Below are positions 35,859-44,470 of a stretch of DNA of 64,000 bases, one piece after another. The position numbers and the translations under genes were made by a program. This DNA is from Geoalkalibacter ferrihydriticus DSM 17813 (GTDB lineage: Bacteria > Desulfobacterota > Desulfuromonadia > Desulfuromonadales > Geoalkalibacteraceae): assembly GCF_000820505.1 (NCBI RefSeq), contig NZ_JWJD01000003.1:1-64000 (forward strand). The letters run 5' to 3'. Below the pieces are notes generated by a model. It had not been told where the DNA came from. It saw nothing but the letters and a program-made list of their open reading frames with translations, and searched no databases. The first letter of the stretch is position 1. The number at the start of each line of letters is the position of its first letter.

Positions 35859-37520
35859 GTGCTAGACGGCAATCTGACCGGCCTCAAACCAAGCCAGATC
35901 AAGGCCCTGGAGCGTATCGACCGGCGTCGCATTCCGCCGGACCAGGTCGTGACGGGGGATCTGGCGCGCTTTCTCACCGAACTCTCCCGGGACATCAGGC
36001 GCCAGCTCGGCATCATTGTCGATCGCCAAGGGCTGATTCTGCATGTGCTGGTCGGCGACGACCGCGAGATTCTCATCCCCGACCTGTCGCGCTTCGGCCT
36101 CGGGCGCAGCCGGCTGCGTGGTCTGCGCTGTATTCATACTCACCTCAAGGGTGAAGCCCTGTCCCACGACGACCTCACCGACCTCGCCTTGCTGCGCCTG
36201 GACCTGATGGTTGCCATTGCCGTTGGCGAGGAAGGTTTGCCCGGGCGAGTCGATTATGCTCACCTGCTTCCCGATAATCCCGAAGGCAAAACCGTCGAGG
36301 TTCTCTCCGCGTCGTCGGTTTACGATCTGCACCTGGATTTTTCGCAATTCATCGATTCACTCGAATCGGAGATGGAACGCAGGATGGGGGAAACCTTCGA
36401 CCTCTCCGACACCCGGGAGAAGGCGATCCTGATCTCCGCGGGGTGCGAAGCGCGCGTGGAGTTGGAGGATTCCCTCAACGAACTGGCCGAATTGGCTCGC
36501 ACTGCCGATGTGGTAGTGCTTGACCGGGTGGTGCAGCGCACCCAGAAGGTCAACCCCCGTTTTCTCATGGGGGAAGGCAAGATCCGCGAAGTGATTATCC
36601 GCGCCCTGCAGCAGGGCGCGACCCTGCTCATTTTCGATCAGGATCTCTCCCCGGGTCAGGTGCGCTCCATCTCGGAAATGACTGAGATGAAGGTCATCGA
36701 TCGCACCCAGTTGATCCTTGATATCTTTGCGCGCCGTGCCCACACCCTCGACGGCAAGGTGCAGGTCGAGGTGGCGCAGCTCAAATACCTCATGCCGCGC
36801 CTGCTCGGAAAAGGGACCGTCATGTCGCGTCTCATGGGGGGCATCGGTGGTCGCGGTCCCGGTGAAACCAAGCTTGAAATTGATCGACGCCGCATCCGCG
36901 AGCGCCTTTCGCGCCTGGAGAAACAGCTCGAATCCCTGTCTCGCGGCCGTCGCCAACGCCGTCAGCGCCGCATTCGTGCCGATGTGCCGATCATCTCCAT
37001 TGTCGGCTATACCAATGCCGGAAAATCAACTCTGCTCAATGCCTTAACCCAGAGCACGGTGTTTACTGAGGACCTGCTCTTTGCCACCCTTGACACCTCC
37101 ACACGCCGTCTGCGCTTTCCCCAGGAGCGCGAGGTCATCATTACCGATACCGTAGGGTTCATTCGCAAACTGCCGAAAAGCCTTCTCGGCGCTTTTAAGG
37201 CGACCCTTGAGGAGTTGGAGGACGCCGACCTGCTGCTGCATGTCGTGGATATCTCGGCACCGCGCTTCGAGGAACATATCGCCGCCGTGGAGCGGATATT
37301 GCAGGATCTTGATCTCGGTGATCTGCCCCGTCTGCTGGTCTTCAACAAGATCGACCGCGTACCCGCAGGTGAGGCCGCGGCTCTCTGCAGGCGTTTTGAA
37401 GCAATCGGAGTCAGTGCTTTGGACCGCAGCACTTTCGAGTCCTTGCTCGAAGAGTTGCAGCGCCGCTTCTGGCCCCAGGAGTCATTTGACGATGGGCCGG
37501 AGAAGGATAGTTTGCTGTAG
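35859..37520 (+). CDS. hflX: Ribosome-associated GTPase HflX
   Basis: A 553-aa GTPase with an extended N-terminal region before the HflX domain (FLMGEGKIREV... and GTVMSRLMGGIGGRGPGETKLE). The G domain has GYTNAGKST near residue 383, DTVGFIRKLP and FNKID. HflX splits stalled 70S ribosomes under stress. Start is GTG 35859 (MLDGNLTGLKPSQ). The N-terminal about 180 residues are longer than in E. coli HflX, as in many delta-class homologues. No hfq lies beside it. Confidence 0.93.
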   Translation: MLDGNLTGLKPSQIKALERIDRRRIPPDQVVTGDLARFLTELSRDIRRQLGIIVDRQGLILHVLVGDDREILIPDLSRFGLGRSRLRGLRCIHTHLKGEALSHDDLTDLALLRLDLMVAIAVGEEGLPGRVDYAHLLPDNPEGKTVEVLSASSVYDLHLDFSQFIDSLESEMERRMGETFDLSDTREKAILISAGCEARVELEDSLNELAELARTADVVVLDRVVQRTQKVNPRFLMGEGKIREVIIRALQQGATLLIFDQDLSPGQVRSISEMTEMKVIDRTQLILDIFARRAHTLDGKVQVEVAQLKYLMPRLLGKGTVMSRLMGGIGGRGPGETKLEIDRRRIRERLSRLEKQLESLSRGRRQRRQRRIRADVPIISIVGYTNAGKSTLLNALTQSTVFTEDLLFATLDTSTRRLRFPQEREVIITDTVGFIRKLPKSLLGAFKATLEELEDADLLLHVVDISAPRFEEHIAAVERILQDLDLGDLPRLLVFNKIDRVPAGEAAALCRRFEAIGVSALDRSTFESLLEELQRRFWPQESFDDGPEKDSLL

Positions 37521-37552
37521 TTTTGTTTTTGGTCTTCAGGAGGTTGTTGTCG

Positions 37553-39262
37553 ATGGTCAAGTTCTTCTTGGTGTTTGCTGTGGTTCTGGTTGCGAGCGGC
37601 TGTCGTCCGGGGATCCCGAACCACAGTGTGCAGGATTCTCCGGCGGTCCCCATTGCCGCCGTGGATCGGCAGGCACAATCCTCTGCGCGGGCGCCGGGCT
37701 TGTCGCTTGCCGATAAAGATCCGTCGGTCCAACAGTGGCCTACCGTCGAGGCGACTCCCAGCGACCTGCGGGATGTCGAGAGGGTGCAAGTGGCTTTGGA
37801 CTCTGTCGCCGACGCTGAAACCGCTGACGATCTGTACTTGCTTCATGTCAATCCCGTGTTTCTCGAAAGCGAAGGCGAGACCCTGGCCCATCGCGAGCCG
37901 GTTTTTGATTTTCCCCTCGTCGAGAACGATCGCGTCCGCTATTTTATCGACCTTTACAGTGGCCCGGCGCGTGGCACCTTTGCTCGCTGGCTGGAACGAT
38001 CGGGGCGGTATATCCCGATGATGCGAGAGATTTTCGCCGAATACGATCTCCCGGAAGACCTGGCTTATCTGGCCATGATCGAATCGGGATTCAACAGCCG
38101 CGCCTACAGTTGGGCACATGCCGTCGGTCCCTGGCAGTTCATCGAAAGTACCGGGCGCATGTATAATCTGCAAGGCGATTGGTGGTTCGATGAACGGCGT
38201 GACCCGGAAAAAGCGACCCACGCCGCCGCGCGCTATCTGCGTGACCTGCATGGTCAGTTCGATGGCGACTGGTATCTGGCGGTGGCTGCATACAATGCCG
38301 GCCCCGGTCGCATCCGCGGCGCGATCAGAGCCTTCGGCGTCAGTGACTTCTGGGAGATATCCCGTGGTCAGCACTTGCAGCTTGAAACCCGCCAGTATGT
38401 GCCCAAGTTACTTGCCGCTTTGACCATTATCAGGGATCTTGAGGCGTACGGGTTTGCCGACCTCGCATTCCATGAGCCGCTGGCCTATGACGTGGTGAAG
38501 GTACCCAGTGCCACCGACCTTGAATTGGTGGCCGAACTCTGCGGGGTCGATTATGAGGAAATCAAGGCGCTGAACCCCGAGCTCAAGCGCTGGAGCACGC
38601 CCCCCGGACGTAAAAATCATGCGTTGCGCATTCCCCAGGGGGGCAAGGACGCTTTTTCTCTGGCCTATGCCCAGGTGCCCGCGGCTGAGCGTGTCCGCTA
38701 CCATCGACACCGGGTACAGGCGGGCGATACCCTGCTCAAACTGGCCGGACAATATCAGGTCCGCGTCGCGGATATCGTTTCGCTCAACAGCATCCGCGAC
38801 CCGCGCGCGCTGCGCATCGGCACCGACCTGATCCTGCCTCTCAAGGAAGGTTACAGCCGGCGGCCTCTGGAGGAGCTGGCCGACGATCACGCCCGGACAC
38901 GCCGTCGTACCTATACCGTCCGCCAGGGTGACAGCCTCTGGTCCATCGGGCGGCGGTTTGACGTGAGCGAGCGCCAATTGCGCGTATGGAACAATCTGGG
39001 CTGGAGCAATCATCTGCGCCCCGGACAGGTGCTGGCCGTATCTGCTCCCGGCCGCGCGACCGGCTCGGCGGGCACCGCCAGCCAGGCTCCCCTCAGGCAG
39101 GTGACCTACACGGTCAAGCCGGGTGACACCCTCTGGGATATTGGTCGTCGCTACCAGGTCGGAACCCGCGAGATCATGAACTGGAACAACCTTAACGAGG
39201 GGCATGTGTTGCGGCCCGGCGATCAGCTCACCCTGATGGTCCGTCAGGCGCAACGTAGCTGA
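37553..39262 (+). CDS. mltD: MltD-like lytic transglycosylase lipoprotein with LysM repeats
   Basis: A 569-aa lipoprotein: lipobox VASGC, a linker, then an SLT domain with catalytic Glu177 in AMIESGFNSRAYSWAHAVGPW and AAYNAGPGRI. Three LysM domains follow in the C-terminal half (YHRHRVQAGDTLLKLAG, YTVRQGDSLWSIGR, YTVKPGDTLWDIGR). It cleaves peptidoglycan glycan strands at the outer-membrane face. ATG 37553 has AGGAGG at 37539-37544. It ends one base before the next gene, so they are cotranscribed. Confidence 0.93.
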   Translation: MVKFFLVFAVVLVASGCRPGIPNHSVQDSPAVPIAAVDRQAQSSARAPGLSLADKDPSVQQWPTVEATPSDLRDVERVQVALDSVADAETADDLYLLHVNPVFLESEGETLAHREPVFDFPLVENDRVRYFIDLYSGPARGTFARWLERSGRYIPMMREIFAEYDLPEDLAYLAMIESGFNSRAYSWAHAVGPWQFIESTGRMYNLQGDWWFDERRDPEKATHAAARYLRDLHGQFDGDWYLAVAAYNAGPGRIRGAIRAFGVSDFWEISRGQHLQLETRQYVPKLLAALTIIRDLEAYGFADLAFHEPLAYDVVKVPSATDLELVAELCGVDYEEIKALNPELKRWSTPPGRKNHALRIPQGGKDAFSLAYAQVPAAERVRYHRHRVQAGDTLLKLAGQYQVRVADIVSLNSIRDPRALRIGTDLILPLKEGYSRRPLEELADDHARTRRRTYTVRQGDSLWSIGRRFDVSERQLRVWNNLGWSNHLRPGQVLAVSAPGRATGSAGTASQAPLRQVTYTVKPGDTLWDIGRRYQVGTREIMNWNNLNEGHVLRPGDQLTLMVRQAQRS

Positions 39263-39263
39263 C

Positions 39264-40016
39264 ATGCAGCACGCGATCTTTCTCGCGCGACCCGAAGACA
39301 GGTTTCCGGCAGGCTATGAGCGCATCTATTTCGGGAGTGAATTCTGCCCCTGGAATTTTCCATCCCTGTCCGAGATTGAGGGTGCGATCGACGCGGCACG
39401 CCGCGCCGGGCTCCACTTCACATTGGCCACCCCGGTGCTTGCCGAGGATTTTCTGCCGCGCCTGAAACAGGTTCTGGCGGGTATCAGCCCGCGCCTGGAA
39501 GCGGGAGATGAAATCCTGATCTCTGACTGGGGTGCCCTGGCGTTGGCCCGTGCAGCCTGTCCCGACGTTTCCCTGGTTCTGGGGCGGGTGCTGTCGGGAC
39601 AAAAGCGCGGTCCTCAGATTGTGGATCTGGATCTCACCCCGGCGGCACGCGCCTATTTCCAGGGCGGCGCCTGGTACGGCAGTGACGCGCGCGAGGTGCT
39701 GGACGAGCTGTTGATTGCCCGCATCGAAATCGATAATCTCCTGCAAGGAGTGGCGCCCCTTGCGGGAGGCGGCGCCTCGCTCCACTTTCCGTATTTGTTT
39801 GTGACCTCAACGCGCAGTTGCCCCTGGCGTGAACCGGGCGACGGCGGTCCCTGCCGCGCTGCCTGCGGCGAGGTTTTTCGCCTGACCTCGCCGCGCGAGA
39901 CCGTGCCGCTGCTGCAATGTGGCAACACGCAATTCATCAGGAACGACCAGTTGCCTGCCGCGCCTGAAACCCTCGGCATCGATCGGCTGGTTTTTCATCC
40001 CTGTCTGCCGCGCTGA
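39264..40016 (+). CDS. U32/UbiV-like protein with a probable 4Fe-4S site
   Basis: A 250-aa soluble protein, not matched with certainty. The N-terminus YERIYFGSEFCPW, the middle ISDWGALALARAACP and LVLGRVLSGQKRGP, and LLQCGNTQFI fit the U32-peptidase-like fold. Cysteines fall at 28, 186, 197 and 201, close in spacing to the four Fe-S cysteines of UbiV (one near the start, then C-x12-C-x3-C). A U32-like Fe-S protein acting on RNA or quinone hydroxylation is plausible. It is cotranscribed with the lytic transglycosylase. Function is unproven. Confidence 0.6.
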   Translation: MQHAIFLARPEDRFPAGYERIYFGSEFCPWNFPSLSEIEGAIDAARRAGLHFTLATPVLAEDFLPRLKQVLAGISPRLEAGDEILISDWGALALARAACPDVSLVLGRVLSGQKRGPQIVDLDLTPAARAYFQGGAWYGSDAREVLDELLIARIEIDNLLQGVAPLAGGGASLHFPYLFVTSTRSCPWREPGDGGPCRAACGEVFRLTSPRETVPLLQCGNTQFIRNDQLPAAPETLGIDRLVFHPCLPR

Positions 40017-40139: not shown

Positions 40140-40865
40140 ATGTACAATATCGCCATTTCTCTTGCTCTCTGTGTTCTGACGACGATTGTCCTGCGTGCTC
40201 TTGTCGGACTCAACCTGTGGCTCTCCACGATTCTTTCGCTGGTGGTGTTTACCGTCTGCTACCTGATTCTGACCCGTATGGTCATGAAGAAAGTGGCGGC
40301 TCTCATGGAGTCGGCCCAGCGCGACCTGCAGGCCGGGCGCGCGGAAAAAGCCATTAAAACTCTTGAGTCGGGGTATCGTTATGGGAATTGGCAATTTTAC
40401 GTCAAAGCACAGATCAATGCCCAGATCGGCACTTTGCTCTTTCTGCGCCGCGATTTTGCCAAAGCCTTTGATTATCTGCAAAAAGGCTTTGTTCGTCACT
40501 GGGTGGCCATGGCGATGCTCGGCATCTGCTACATGAAGCGCAATCAGACCACCAAGATGGTCGAGACCTTCGATAAGGCGGTGGCCGCCAACAAAAAGGA
40601 GCCGCTGCTGTGGAATCTTTATGCCTATTGCCTGGAAAGAGTCGGGGATAAGGAAAAAGCCATCCAGGTTATGGAAAAAGGCCTGAAAAAGGTTGGAGGC
40701 GACGAAAATCTCTCCGCGAACCTGCAGGCGCTTAAAGATGGGCGGCGCATGAAGATGCGCCTCTACGGCGATCTCTGGTATCAGTTCCATCTTGAAAAAC
40801 CTGGAGCGGTGGTCAAGGAGCAGACCAAGGCCGTTATGGGGCGCCGCAAGATCGTCCGCAGATAG
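40140..40865 (+). CDS. Membrane-anchored TPR protein of unknown function
   Basis: A 241-aa protein with two N-terminal membrane helices (about 5-25 and 28-50) and then TPR-like repeats (AEKAIKTLESGYRYG, FAKAFDYLQKGFVRH, LWNLYAYCLERVGDKEKAIQVMEKGL) on the cytoplasmic or periplasmic side. A protein-docking role is likely. It has its own promoter and is probably cotranscribed with the Smr gene 27 bases later. Confidence 0.8.
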   Translation: MYNIAISLALCVLTTIVLRALVGLNLWLSTILSLVVFTVCYLILTRMVMKKVAALMESAQRDLQAGRAEKAIKTLESGYRYGNWQFYVKAQINAQIGTLLFLRRDFAKAFDYLQKGFVRHWVAMAMLGICYMKRNQTTKMVETFDKAVAANKKEPLLWNLYAYCLERVGDKEKAIQVMEKGLKKVGGDENLSANLQALKDGRRMKMRLYGDLWYQFHLEKPGAVVKEQTKAVMGRRKIVRR

Positions 40866-40892
40866 GCGCCGGTGCATTGGCGAGGTGTTCTC

Positions 40893-41603
40893 ATGGCACG
40901 CAAAAAACGCAAGACAGCGACCACCTGCAGCAAAGAAAGTGACTTTACCCACACCCCCTTCAGGGATCTGAAGGGGGTGTCCGTTTGCCGGGCTGTGCAC
41001 AGGGAGTCGACACCCGCCGCGGAGCCTCCGCAGCTTAAGGGCGCGCAGGACAAGCCAGCCGATGAAGCACTGTTTTTGGAGGAGATGGCCTTGTTGCGGG
41101 TCAAGGCGAGCCGCGGGCAAGACGATGGAGGCGATGTTCCTGCCTGTGCCGCCCCGATGGATGAGGACGAACGCGGTCAGGACCCGCAAGGATCGGCGCA
41201 AGGGGAGGACCAGGCCTTGTTTCTAAGCGCCCTCGGCGACATGGAGCGCACCTTTGTCGATGAGATTCCCTCGGAACCTTCGCCGCCCCAGGCTTCACCC
41301 CGCCGCATGCGGGAGCTCAATCGCGGTCGGCGCCGTCCCGAAGCCGAGTTGGATCTGCACGGACTGGACCGCATACGGGCCCGCGAGCGTGTCCGGCATT
41401 TTCTCGACAACTGTCGCCATCAGGGTTTGAGTACGGTGCTGGTGATCACCGGTCGGGGGCTGCACTCGGGGGACGAGCCGGTGTTGCGCACCGATCTGGA
41501 GAGCTTTCTCGCGGAGGAGGGCCGCACCTGGGCGGTTGAATGGGGGCGGGCGCCGCGCCAATACGGTGGCGCGGGCGCCCTGGTGATCTTCCTCAAAAAG
41601 TAA
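40893..41603 (+). CDS. Smr-domain protein
   Basis: A 236-aa protein with a long charged, low-complexity N-terminal half and a C-terminal Smr domain (about 150-236) with LDLHG, the VLVITGRGLHSG loop and GGAGALVIFLK. Smr domains are nucleases related to the MutS2 C-terminus, acting on DNA junctions or RNA. ATG 40893 has GAGGTG upstream. A bidirectional terminator follows. Confidence 0.88.
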   Translation: MARKKRKTATTCSKESDFTHTPFRDLKGVSVCRAVHRESTPAAEPPQLKGAQDKPADEALFLEEMALLRVKASRGQDDGGDVPACAAPMDEDERGQDPQGSAQGEDQALFLSALGDMERTFVDEIPSEPSPPQASPRRMRELNRGRRRPEAELDLHGLDRIRARERVRHFLDNCRHQGLSTVLVITGRGLHSGDEPVLRTDLESFLAEEGRTWAVEWGRAPRQYGGAGALVIFLKK

Positions 41604-41610
41604 GGGATAA

Positions 41611-41649
41611 AAATAACGAAAGGCCGCTAAACGCGGCCTTTCGTTATTT
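41611..41649. terminator. Bidirectional terminator between the Smr gene and RNase E/G
   Basis: A 17-bp perfect stem (41611-41627 with 41633-41649) around TAAAC, with A/T tracts on both flanks. It overlaps the last codon of the convergent RNase E/G gene. Confidence 0.88.
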
Positions 41650-44123
41650 CAGGAGCCTTCCTCATCGGGCTGAGGCGGCGCATCGACCGGCTTTTTGGTT
41701 GGAGCTTTTTTCCGGGCGGGCGCCTTCTTGGCCGTGGTGGTGCGCTTGGCGCGTGGCTTGGCTGGAGGTTTCTCACTCGTTTCGGTCGTGTCCGGATTCT
41801 CACCCGCCGATTCGGCAAGCTCCCCGGAGGCGCTTGGTGCCTGGGTTGTGGTTGATTTTTTTGCTGCCGGTGTTCTGCGCTTGCGTGTCGGCTTGGCTTT
41901 TTCCGGTTGCGGCTGGGGTTCCGAGACTTGCGGAGTTGTTGATGTCGCCTGCGCCGGGGCCCCGGCGAGTTCCGGTGGCGACTCCGCAGCCTGCGGGGCG
42001 GGACTCTGATCCTGAGCGGCCGGCACAGCAGCAGCCGTTTCTTGGAGCGCAGCAGGTTTTTTGGCGCGCCCGCGGCGCGCACGTGTGGTCGCGGTCTTCT
42101 TTGGTGCTTCCGGCTCTGCCTGGGCAGGCTCTTGGGTCTCGGTTTGCTCAGAATTTTGGGGCACCTTCGAGGGTGCTTGATCGTTTTCGGAAAAGGCCTC
42201 AGCAGGCGCAGCCGTTGTGCCGGGCTCGGATTTCTTGCGCCGTCGTGGGCGAGGTTTGCGCTTGGTCTCAGCCTCGGGCTGCGGCGTGGTGGCATCCGTT
42301 TCCGAAGTCGCAGCGGCGGGCTGCGGAAGTTTTTCTTCAGTCGCCGTCGTTTCCGCAGGAGTTGCAGCCGGCTCAGCCGGTGCGGTGAGTGAGGCAGCCG
42401 CGGCTTCGGTCTGCAAGGGCGCCGATTCTTCCACGGGCGCGGTTTCGGCAGATTCCCCGGCACCTGATTTTTTGCGGCGGCGCCGGCGGCGTTTCTTTTT
42501 GCCGGGTTTCTCCTCCTCCTGGGCGGCGGTGACGGCGGTTTCCGGAGCAGCAATGTCGGACGTATCTTCCATGCCGGCCGGTGCCTCAGGCTCAGTGACC
42601 GGCTCTGCGGGCTCCAATTCGGATTTTGTCCGCGGTTCCTCTTCTTTTTCCCGCCGAACCAGCGTCAGGTCGGCCTGATGGGGGAGCAAACCGGCGCGAC
42701 CGTGGAGGATGATCTCCATGTTATGACGACTCTCCATGTCCGTCAGTTCTTCGCGATTATAATTGAGCAGATAGTCGGCGACATCCAGGGGCAGAAATCC
42801 TTCCACACGATGGACCTGGCCTTTGGCCACCGCAGTTTGAATGCGGCGCAAAAAAGCGACGCCCTGAGCCTCCACGCTTTTTATGCGGCCGCGTCCCTGG
42901 CAGTGGGGGCATTCCAGATAGGAGGCGGACGCGAGCATCGGCTTGAGGCGCTGGCGGCTCATTTCGAGCAGACCGAATTGGCTGATGCGGCCCACGGTGA
43001 CGCGTGATTTGTCGCGCTGCAGCGCATCGCGGAGGGTTTTCTCCACCGCCCGGATATTTTTGCGATCGCGCATGTCGATAAAATCGATGACGATCAGGCC
43101 GGCCAGGTCGCGCAGGCGCAATTGACGGGCGACTTCCACCGCAGCTTCCAGGTTGGTTCGGCTCGCGGTCGCTTCGATGCCCTGCTCACCAGCCATCTTT
43201 CCTGAGTTGACATCGATGGCCACCAAGGCTTCGGTTGCATCGAGAACGATGGAGCCACCAGAGGGCAGAGGTACCTTGTTGTGGGCGATAGTCTCGATCT
43301 GCTCCTCGATTTGGTAGCGCGAAAAAATGGGCCGGCGTTCCTGGTGGAGCTTGACCAGTCGCACCTTGTCGGGCATGAGCATACGAAAGAATTCGCGAGC
43401 CTCTTCGTAAACGGCGGGGTCATCGACCAGTACTTCTTCGGTGTCTTCGGTGAAATAGTCGCGGATACAGCGGATGATCAGATTGGATTCGCGGTACACC
43501 AGGCTTGGCGCCTTGGCCTGGCGGCTGCGTTCCTGTATGCCCTGGTAAACCTTGACCAGATTGTCGAAATCGCGGCGCAGTTCCTCGGAAGGTTTGCCGA
43601 TGCCGGCAGTGCGTACGATGTAGCCCATGTTTTCCGGAAGGTCGAGTTCGGCCATGGCTTTCTTGAGCTTCTTGCGCTCCGCCTCTTCCTCGATCTTGCG
43701 CGAAACGCCTTTTGTGGGACTTTCGGGCATCAGCACCATATAACGGCCCGGCAGGGACAGGAAGGTGGTCAGAGCCGCACCTTTGGTGCCGCGCTCTTCC
43801 TTGAGGACCTGTACCAGAATTTCCTGGCCGGAACGCAGGATATCGTTGATGCGTGGCCGGCTGCGGCCGTTCACCTCGCCTTCCGGGTAGAGGTTGGGGT
43901 GAATCTCGCCGATTTGCAGAAAGCCCAGGCGCTCTCCCCCGTAATCGACGAAAGCGGCCTGCAGTCCGCTTTCCACCCGGACTACCACCGCTTTATAAAT
44001 GTTGCCTTTGGCTTGTTCCTTGCCGGTGATTTCGATGTCGAGTTCGGTCAGAAAGCCGTCTTCGACGATGGCCACCCGGTGCTCTTCGTCATGGGTGGCG
44101 TTGATCAGCATTTTGCGGCTCAT
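41649..44123 (-). CDS. Ribonuclease E/G with a long basic/acidic tail
   Basis: An 824-aa endoribonuclease. Core (about 1-500): S1 domain around 38-120, 5' sensor region, catalytic aspartates in VAIDVNSGKM and LIVIDFIDMRDRKN, and zinc link CPHCQGRG. Residues about 510-824 are a disordered tail of acidic A/P/E/T stretches interrupted by basic clusters (KKKRRRRRRKKSG, RKPRPRRRKK, RARRGRAKK, KRTTTAKKAPARKK). The core makes it RNase E/G; the tail suggests RNase E-type scaffold or RNA-binding functions. Start ATG 44123 has AAAGGA upstream. Confidence 0.92.
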   Translation of the reverse strand: MSRKMLINATHDEEHRVAIVEDGFLTELDIEITGKEQAKGNIYKAVVVRVESGLQAAFVDYGGERLGFLQIGEIHPNLYPEGEVNGRSRPRINDILRSGQEILVQVLKEERGTKGAALTTFLSLPGRYMVLMPESPTKGVSRKIEEEAERKKLKKAMAELDLPENMGYIVRTAGIGKPSEELRRDFDNLVKVYQGIQERSRQAKAPSLVYRESNLIIRCIRDYFTEDTEEVLVDDPAVYEEAREFFRMLMPDKVRLVKLHQERRPIFSRYQIEEQIETIAHNKVPLPSGGSIVLDATEALVAIDVNSGKMAGEQGIEATASRTNLEAAVEVARQLRLRDLAGLIVIDFIDMRDRKNIRAVEKTLRDALQRDKSRVTVGRISQFGLLEMSRQRLKPMLASASYLECPHCQGRGRIKSVEAQGVAFLRRIQTAVAKGQVHRVEGFLPLDVADYLLNYNREELTDMESRHNMEIILHGRAGLLPHQADLTLVRREKEEEPRTKSELEPAEPVTEPEAPAGMEDTSDIAAPETAVTAAQEEEKPGKKKRRRRRRKKSGAGESAETAPVEESAPLQTEAAAASLTAPAEPAATPAETTATEEKLPQPAAATSETDATTPQPEAETKRKPRPRRRKKSEPGTTAAPAEAFSENDQAPSKVPQNSEQTETQEPAQAEPEAPKKTATTRARRGRAKKPAALQETAAAVPAAQDQSPAPQAAESPPELAGAPAQATSTTPQVSEPQPQPEKAKPTRKRRTPAAKKSTTTQAPSASGELAESAGENPDTTETSEKPPAKPRAKRTTTAKKAPARKKAPTKKPVDAPPQPDEEGS

Positions 44124-44470
44124 GCAGTTAGTCCTTTGCGGAGGGCGCTGTGTGCCTCTCCTGTAAATGGGGTAAGATCGTCTCGAGAAGAGGCGATGGT
44201 CCCACAAGGCTCGACGGACGACCCGGAGCCGGCACCTGCAAGGCGACGCGGCGTTTCTGGTCTGATTCCGGAGGCTCCGGCGGGAAAACGAAAAGTGCAC
44301 TAAAAAAACGGGCCAGCTGCCCGGATTTTTGTAAAAATTTGACCGGCTGAAGGTTGCGGTCTGCGCAGAATATAACAGACTCGACATTCTTTGAATAGTG
44401 CCAAAGGTTGAAAAAGAGTACTCATTTTAAATGTTTTAAGCCACTCGGGGGCTGTGTTATAAGAAAAGCC
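44124..44470. other. Divergent region: long RNase E/G leader and ABC-F promoter
   Basis: No gene is supported in 347 bases. On the minus strand TATATT at 44374-44369 is a candidate -10 box, which would give an RNase E/G leader of about 240 nt. E. coli rne also has a long autoregulatory leader. On the plus strand an A/T-rich stretch at 44400-44460 probably holds the ABC-F promoter. Confidence 0.4.

Follow-up and report, generated by a model that had tools for sequence, protein, structure and literature searches.

The window analysed here, a 64,000-nucleotide stretch of Geoalkalibacter ferrihydriticus DNA, carries at positions 39264..40016 (+ strand) a gene for a 250 amino acid protein, P0001, whose fold and ligands are UbiV-like although it is not UbiV itself. 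Its partner is an unlinked UbiU-like protein, P0002, and not the MltD-like lytic transglycosylase encoded immediately upstream. On the basis of sequence, we consider it probable that the two proteins constitute a UbiUV-type O2-independent hydroxylase pair acting on a substrate that is probably not an isoprenoid quinone. The analysis draws on sequence homology, predicted fold, conservation of the ligands and the joint occurrence of the two genes at unlinked sites, and UbiUV-type pairs are of a known kind.

The P0001 gene, its fold and its cysteines

The P0001 ORF begins with an ATG at 39264, one base past the stop codon of the mltD-like gene, and ends at 40016. It is a real, conserved gene because close orthologs without internal stops occur in 39 of the 98 genomes of the order, its own genome counted, and because the differences from the G002 ortholog fall mainly at third codon positions (61/36/121 by codon position). 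The other orthologs are 46-71% identical to it. The search tally was 41 genomes at E<=0.001, a figure that includes two (G016 and G052) bearing only a distant, qhp-linked form. Counts of P0001 loci leave out nine of the 39 orthologs for which no locus was fetched, and the A1 set omits L036, which repeats L032, and L038, whose gene is partial. Six loci in a named genome collection, under record titles of Desulfuromonadales or Deltaproteobacteria, also carry the gene, and no match was obtained in eight listed genomes from other orders of the same class. Geobacter is a member of this class.

Several neighbours on the + strand show conserved synteny. The MltD-like lytic transglycosylase with SLT and LysM domains (37523..39262, start codon uncertain) is preceded by an HflX-type GTPase (35859..37520), and downstream of P0001 lie a TPR protein (40140..40865) and an Smr-domain protein (40872..41603). 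Further on, at 41649-44387, the strand opposite to this block encodes a member of the RNase E/G family whose long C-terminal tail is rich in Ala, Pro and Lys.

Searches with the single sequence yielded little. P0001 showed no match at E<=1 to Pfam, PF01136 included, or to NCBIfam, including the UbiV models NF047965 and NF011991; as a control, E. coli UbiV scored 363 and 440 bits on the NCBIfam UbiV models. A phmmer search against PDB sequences gave nothing at E<=10 and a profile search produced chance-level matches only. Similarly, hhalign comparisons of the family with single sequences were uninformative (0.7% for E. coli UbiV, 1.0% for UbiU), alignments being needed on both sides. When ten UbiV sequences were used, the ortholog profile matched at 88.1%, and the orthologs combined with the qhp-linked and Roseburia V sequences described below matched at 93.4% over 240 columns (E 2.5e-7 for one comparison). 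This mixed profile gave 18.9% against UbiU, but 92.8% against the P0002 family, and the P0001 orthologs matched a profile of the qhp-linked and Roseburia V sequences at 99.9% (E 3e-33).

An AlphaFold2 model of P0001 (pLDDT 83.4, pTM 0.86) was compared with known structures. VIA-align placed the U32 structure 5d88 at rank 1 (Z 13.1, 191 of 250 residues, rmsd 3.5), and the runner-up, CutC at Z 12.5, ties with it by the rule of the tool (within 1), so that the ranking is not decisive. Foldseek returned no match below E 0.001, and 5d88 lay outside its top 50. The sequence-only reading, which had proposed a U32/UbiV-like protein and had named an unrelated fold as the result that would overturn the proposal, is upheld on this point by the rank of 5d88, first if by a narrow margin, by the 93.4% match to UbiV and by the alignment of the ligands.

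The four cysteines singled out in that reading for their resemblance to the Fe-S cysteines of UbiV also bear inspection. From alignment and computed codon positions, Cys28 (39345..39347), Cys186 (39819..39821), Cys197 (39852..39854) and Cys201 (39864..39866), all on the + strand, correspond to C39, C180, C193 and C197, respectively, of E. coli UbiV, and they do so in 66 of 66 V-type sequences, ten of these being UbiV. The UbiV residues were demonstrated by mutation to be ligands of a [4Fe-4S] cluster (PMC6747719). The four cysteines are invariant in 36/36 P0001-type sequences, a set that includes P0001 itself and a few sequences from the same genome, in which Cys99, Cys219 and Cys247 are not conserved. 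The coincidence with the UbiV ligands is far beyond chance. In the 66-sequence alignment, the V-type members other than UbiV also have R108, E155, D157 and F224 in common, and these are absent from UbiV.

P0001 thus resembles E. coli UbiV in its four cysteine ligands, its U32-type fold and its UbiU-like partner. It differs in being 250 rather than 292 amino acids long, in the common residues given above, and in the spacing between the second and third cysteines, which is X10 in P0001 and X12 in UbiV (CXnCX12CX3C), the third and fourth being X3 apart in P0001. That it is not UbiV follows from the failure of the UbiV models, the non-adjacent partner and the lack of an SCP2/UbiT-type match in its own genome.

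An unlinked UbiU-like partner

Three PF01136 proteins are encoded in the genome, in open frames of 446, 841 and 326 codons. The smallest is P0002 (325 amino acids), at G000:C2:64785-65759 on another contig, outside the window. It scores 113 bits on PF01136 (gathering cut-off 22.4), its family matches the UbiU profile at 99.8%, and the top Foldseek match is 5d88 (E 5.1e-9). Its C188-x6-C195 pair matches C169-x6-C176 of UbiU. Unlike UbiU, it reaches only 88.7 bits on NCBIfam model NF047963 against a cut-off of 440, its cysteines fail to align with the third and fourth of UbiU, and its gene adjoins tlyA-type and TP methylase genes rather than ubiV or ubiT.

Close orthologs of P0002 occur in the same 39 genomes as those of P0001 and in none of the 59 others, when G016 and G052, which carry distant qhp-linked forms only, are excluded; this co-occurrence covers one order and has no formal phylogenetic test behind it. 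By genus, 21 are all positive for the pair, 24 are all negative and three are mixed. With completeness ratings of 91-100% for the four pair-negative genomes in these mixed genera, the two genes were probably gained or lost in step more than once. They are far apart in closed or nearly closed genomes, by 0.98 Mb in G002, 0.27 Mb in G024 and 0.68 Mb in G051. Nine of the 39 P0002 orthologs are without a fetched locus and were left out of the locus counts, and the A2 set omits seven of 30 P0002 loci (three ORF misreads and four extended starts). The P0002 orthologs of three genomes, G064, G027 and G007, each contain a single in-frame stop codon (TAG or TAA) within the region of the match.

P0002 is adjoined by a tlyA-type methyltransferase gene (FtsJ and S4 domains) and by a gene for an orphan CobM-like TP methylase (L179:7777-8547, corresponding to G000:C2:65776-66546) that scores 102 bits against a cut-off of 259.65. 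Both lie near the U gene at 10/10 loci within the order and at 8/13 outside it, in one case about 2 kb ahead of U. The TP methylase was considered as a third component of the system and rejected. Strong matches to it occur in all 39 pair-positive genomes and also in 22 of the 59 pair-negative ones, and in 10 of 11 loci examined from the latter 22 genomes tlyA and the TP methylase remain in place at an empty U site, with the G013 locus stopping at a contig edge. The persistence of the TP methylase without U means that its presence is no proof of a common pathway, and, since tlyA persists with it, the neighbours of P0002 are no safe guide to the substrate. No gene neighbourhood of the pair names a substrate.

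V-type relatives and the qhp-linked branch

Of 395 genomes of the phylum that were searched with the mixed profile, 38 have V-type genes, and 32 of these 38 lie outside the order. In 15/15 outside-order genomes examined, drawn from these 32 V-positive genomes alone, the number of V genes equalled that of U matches above 100 bits, a threshold that was set after the scores had been seen; in G119, a 56-residue V fragment was treated as part of one gene split over contigs. V and U are adjacent in eight loci of the L117-L126 group, and the annotated neighbourhoods, from two of the genomes, indicated no substrate. In nine genomes of other families (L138, L146, L147, L149, L151, L153, L155, L157 and L158), V lies downstream of the molybdenum cofactor gene moeA and U is unlinked; mobB lies between moeA and V in three that were tested, and in G157 moeA directly abuts V. 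As a functional hint the moeA linkage is suggestive only. A plasmid of Roseburia sp. 831b encodes a 476 amino acid UbiV-like protein, the N-terminal part of which shows no Pfam match, followed by an adjacent U32 gene (L105:8311-10999). In contrast to ubiUV, in which ubiV is second (PMC11707229), the linked V-U relatives seen run V before U. The V-type members that were scanned matched no Pfam or NCBIfam model, and annotation is therefore likely to miss one of the two halves of every such pair.

A third recurring arrangement is seen in operons for quinohemoprotein amine dehydrogenase, where adjacent V and U genes lie within the order qhpA-D-C-B-V-U-F, with E further on. Such loci were found in four genomes of the order (L101-L104) and in five from three other families (L145, L148, L150, L152 and L156), and L160 shows the order D-V-U-F-E. 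The qhp subunits were assigned with Pfam and NCBIfam in L104 and elsewhere by similarity to L104. These pairs, like P0001 and P0002, consist of V-type and U-type halves, and the V-type families match each other at the 99.9% given above. They differ in the adjacency of V and U and in branching apart, as a clade of their own that has a bootstrap of 100 in the V and U trees alike. The P0001-type group forms one clade with weak bootstrap (62 for V, 12 for U), and together with the moeA-type group it makes up a single clade in the tree of U (94), though not in that of V; in the U tree, the in-frame TAG of the qhp-type U of G272 was set to X.

In aerobes, the flavoprotein QhpG, which depends on O2 and FAD, dihydroxylates Trp43 of the gamma subunit en route to cysteine tryptophylquinone (CTQ) (PMC7876137). 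Three of 50 plasmid records with QhpD, from Paracoccus, Pseudomonas and Leisingera, served as the aerobic comparison; their qhp loci have a flavoprotein gene, taken as qhpG from its place and annotation, and show no V or U match. Conversely, the 10 Desulfobacterota qhp loci, all of which carry V and U, showed no match to the three plasmid QhpG proteins at E 1e-3. Searching whole genomes with the Pseudomonas QhpG gave nothing in nine of the 10 qhp V-U genomes and a single 37-residue match in G174. The CWWPAQ motif of the gamma subunit is kept in 12 of 12 sequences compared. Moreover, among the 98 genomes of the order, the QhpC gamma family PF08992 scores above its cut-off only in G016, G042, G051 and G052, which are exactly the four with qhp-type V and U; G041 has a match below the cut-off, with stops, and no PF08992 match was found in the G. 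ferrihydriticus genome. Six of the qhp V-U loci have gene cluster c9 nearby; its L103 member is an aldehyde ferredoxin oxidoreductase, a neighbour fitting anaerobic amine use. The qhp-linked pair thus appears to replace QhpG in the same proposed role, hydroxylation of the CTQ tryptophan, which suggests that V-U pairs can act on a protein tryptophan.

Proposed function and alternative explanations

The sequence-only reading had placed P0001 in an operon with the MltD-like gene, and a cell-wall function tied to MltD could be read into the one-base gap and shared strand, or into the mltD-moeA-V order that occurs in a distant family (L147). This linkage is ruled out as a functional clue by the hflX-mltD-TPR order, which is intact without P0001 in 10 of the 12 pair-negative genomes searched, including G016, whose mltD is broken into two frames; the remaining two are uninformative on TPR, G006 showing hflX-mltD only and G038 being fragmented. 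The mltD gene is present in all 12, and V relatives of other families stand in different neighbourhoods. Since mltD is kept where P0001 is missing, the adjacency is incidental, and a cell-wall role is barely credible. The earlier suggestion of an O2-independent quinone hydroxylase, either UbiV proper or a modifier of menaquinone, has a starting point in that UbiV is the closest characterised relative of P0001, with matching cysteines, and in that a ubiquinone pathway with UbiUV has been reported for one other Desulfobacterota class, GWC2-55-46 (PMC13386864). Nevertheless, it finds no support in the genomes. The NCBIfam UbiV model is silent at E<=1, in 99.6% of cases genuine ubiU and ubiV are no more than 500 bp apart (PMC11707229) whereas P0001 and P0002 are unlinked, and a search for quinone-related genes of the SCP2 and MqnA/MqnD families yielded 0 SCP2/UbiT-type matches in the G. 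ferrihydriticus genome, the E. coli control being positive. The MqnA/MqnD (futalosine) families are represented in 39/39 pair-positive and 55/59 pair-negative genomes, with two matches in the G. ferrihydriticus genome. As these genes do not track the pair, menaquinone synthesis is rejected as its selective reason, and we regard a quinone hydroxylase as quite improbable.

Hydroxylation of an RNA base is also unlikely, if less so. It is brought to mind by the other characterised U32 oxidases, which target RNA (PMC11574389), and by the tlyA-type methyltransferase gene adjoining P0002. However, TrhP and RlhA, which perform such reactions, are single chains, and the U32 proteins of 446 and 841 codons in the genome, TrhP/RlhA-like by size alone, are encoded by separate genes; furthermore, the tlyA and TP methylase neighbours remain where U is missing. 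A non-catalytic pair engaged in Fe-S electron transfer or O2 sensing would account for four conserved cysteines and for neighbourhoods that point to no substrate, but we find it very unlikely given that the characterised relatives are hydroxylases (PMC6747719, PMC11574389) and that the qhp-linked branch occupies a place that calls for an oxygenase.

For the reading that we prefer, a hydroxylase pair with a substrate that is probably not an isoprenoid quinone, E. coli UbiU-UbiV and the U32 oxidases serve as the model of mechanism (PMC6747719; reviewed in PMC11574389). By analogy, P0001 would be the V-type half and P0002 the UbiU-like half of a two-subunit U32 enzyme, each half holding one [4Fe-4S] cluster, in P0001 on Cys28, Cys186, Cys197 and Cys201. 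The two proteins would bind each other to yield a heterodimer with two [4Fe-4S] clusters, which may then place a hydroxyl group on the substrate without O2, the oxygen donor probably being prephenate.

A wider proposal, for which we judge the chances to be about even, is that P0001 and P0002 are members of a wide, as yet unrecognised class of O2-independent hydroxylases built of two U32 subunits, with substrates that are neither quinones nor RNA, in which the qhp branch would dihydroxylate the gamma-subunit tryptophan on the way to cysteine tryptophylquinone, replacing QhpG, and the branch represented in the window would modify another protein or a cofactor. A 2024 review describes characterised U32 oxidases with quinone and RNA substrates only (PMC11574389). 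Our search of the open-access literature turned up no description of V-type proteins as a family, of unlinked partners in organisms without ubiquinone or of the qhp pairs, nor any work joining quinohemoprotein amine dehydrogenase with U32 proteins. If the proposal is true, the qhp-linked pair would constitute the first action of U32 enzymes on a protein and would explain the anaerobic making of a cofactor that requires O2 along its known biosynthetic route. V-U pairs touch on the open question of how carbon is hydroxylated without O2 in anaerobes, and the qhp branch offers a directly testable substrate, a 109 amino acid protein with a known tryptophan, that could open up the chemistry of the whole V-U family.

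Genes for DAHP synthase or prephenate dehydratase occur near some V or U genes, an observation that is suggestive only. One family, f57, has a second V copy (L142 and L144) close to rdgB and DAHP synthase genes, and also a second U at another, unlinked place. At L213, a UbiU-like gene, a chorismate mutase/prephenate dehydratase gene and a 414-codon U32-like gene fall within 6 kb, prephenate being the suspected oxygen donor.
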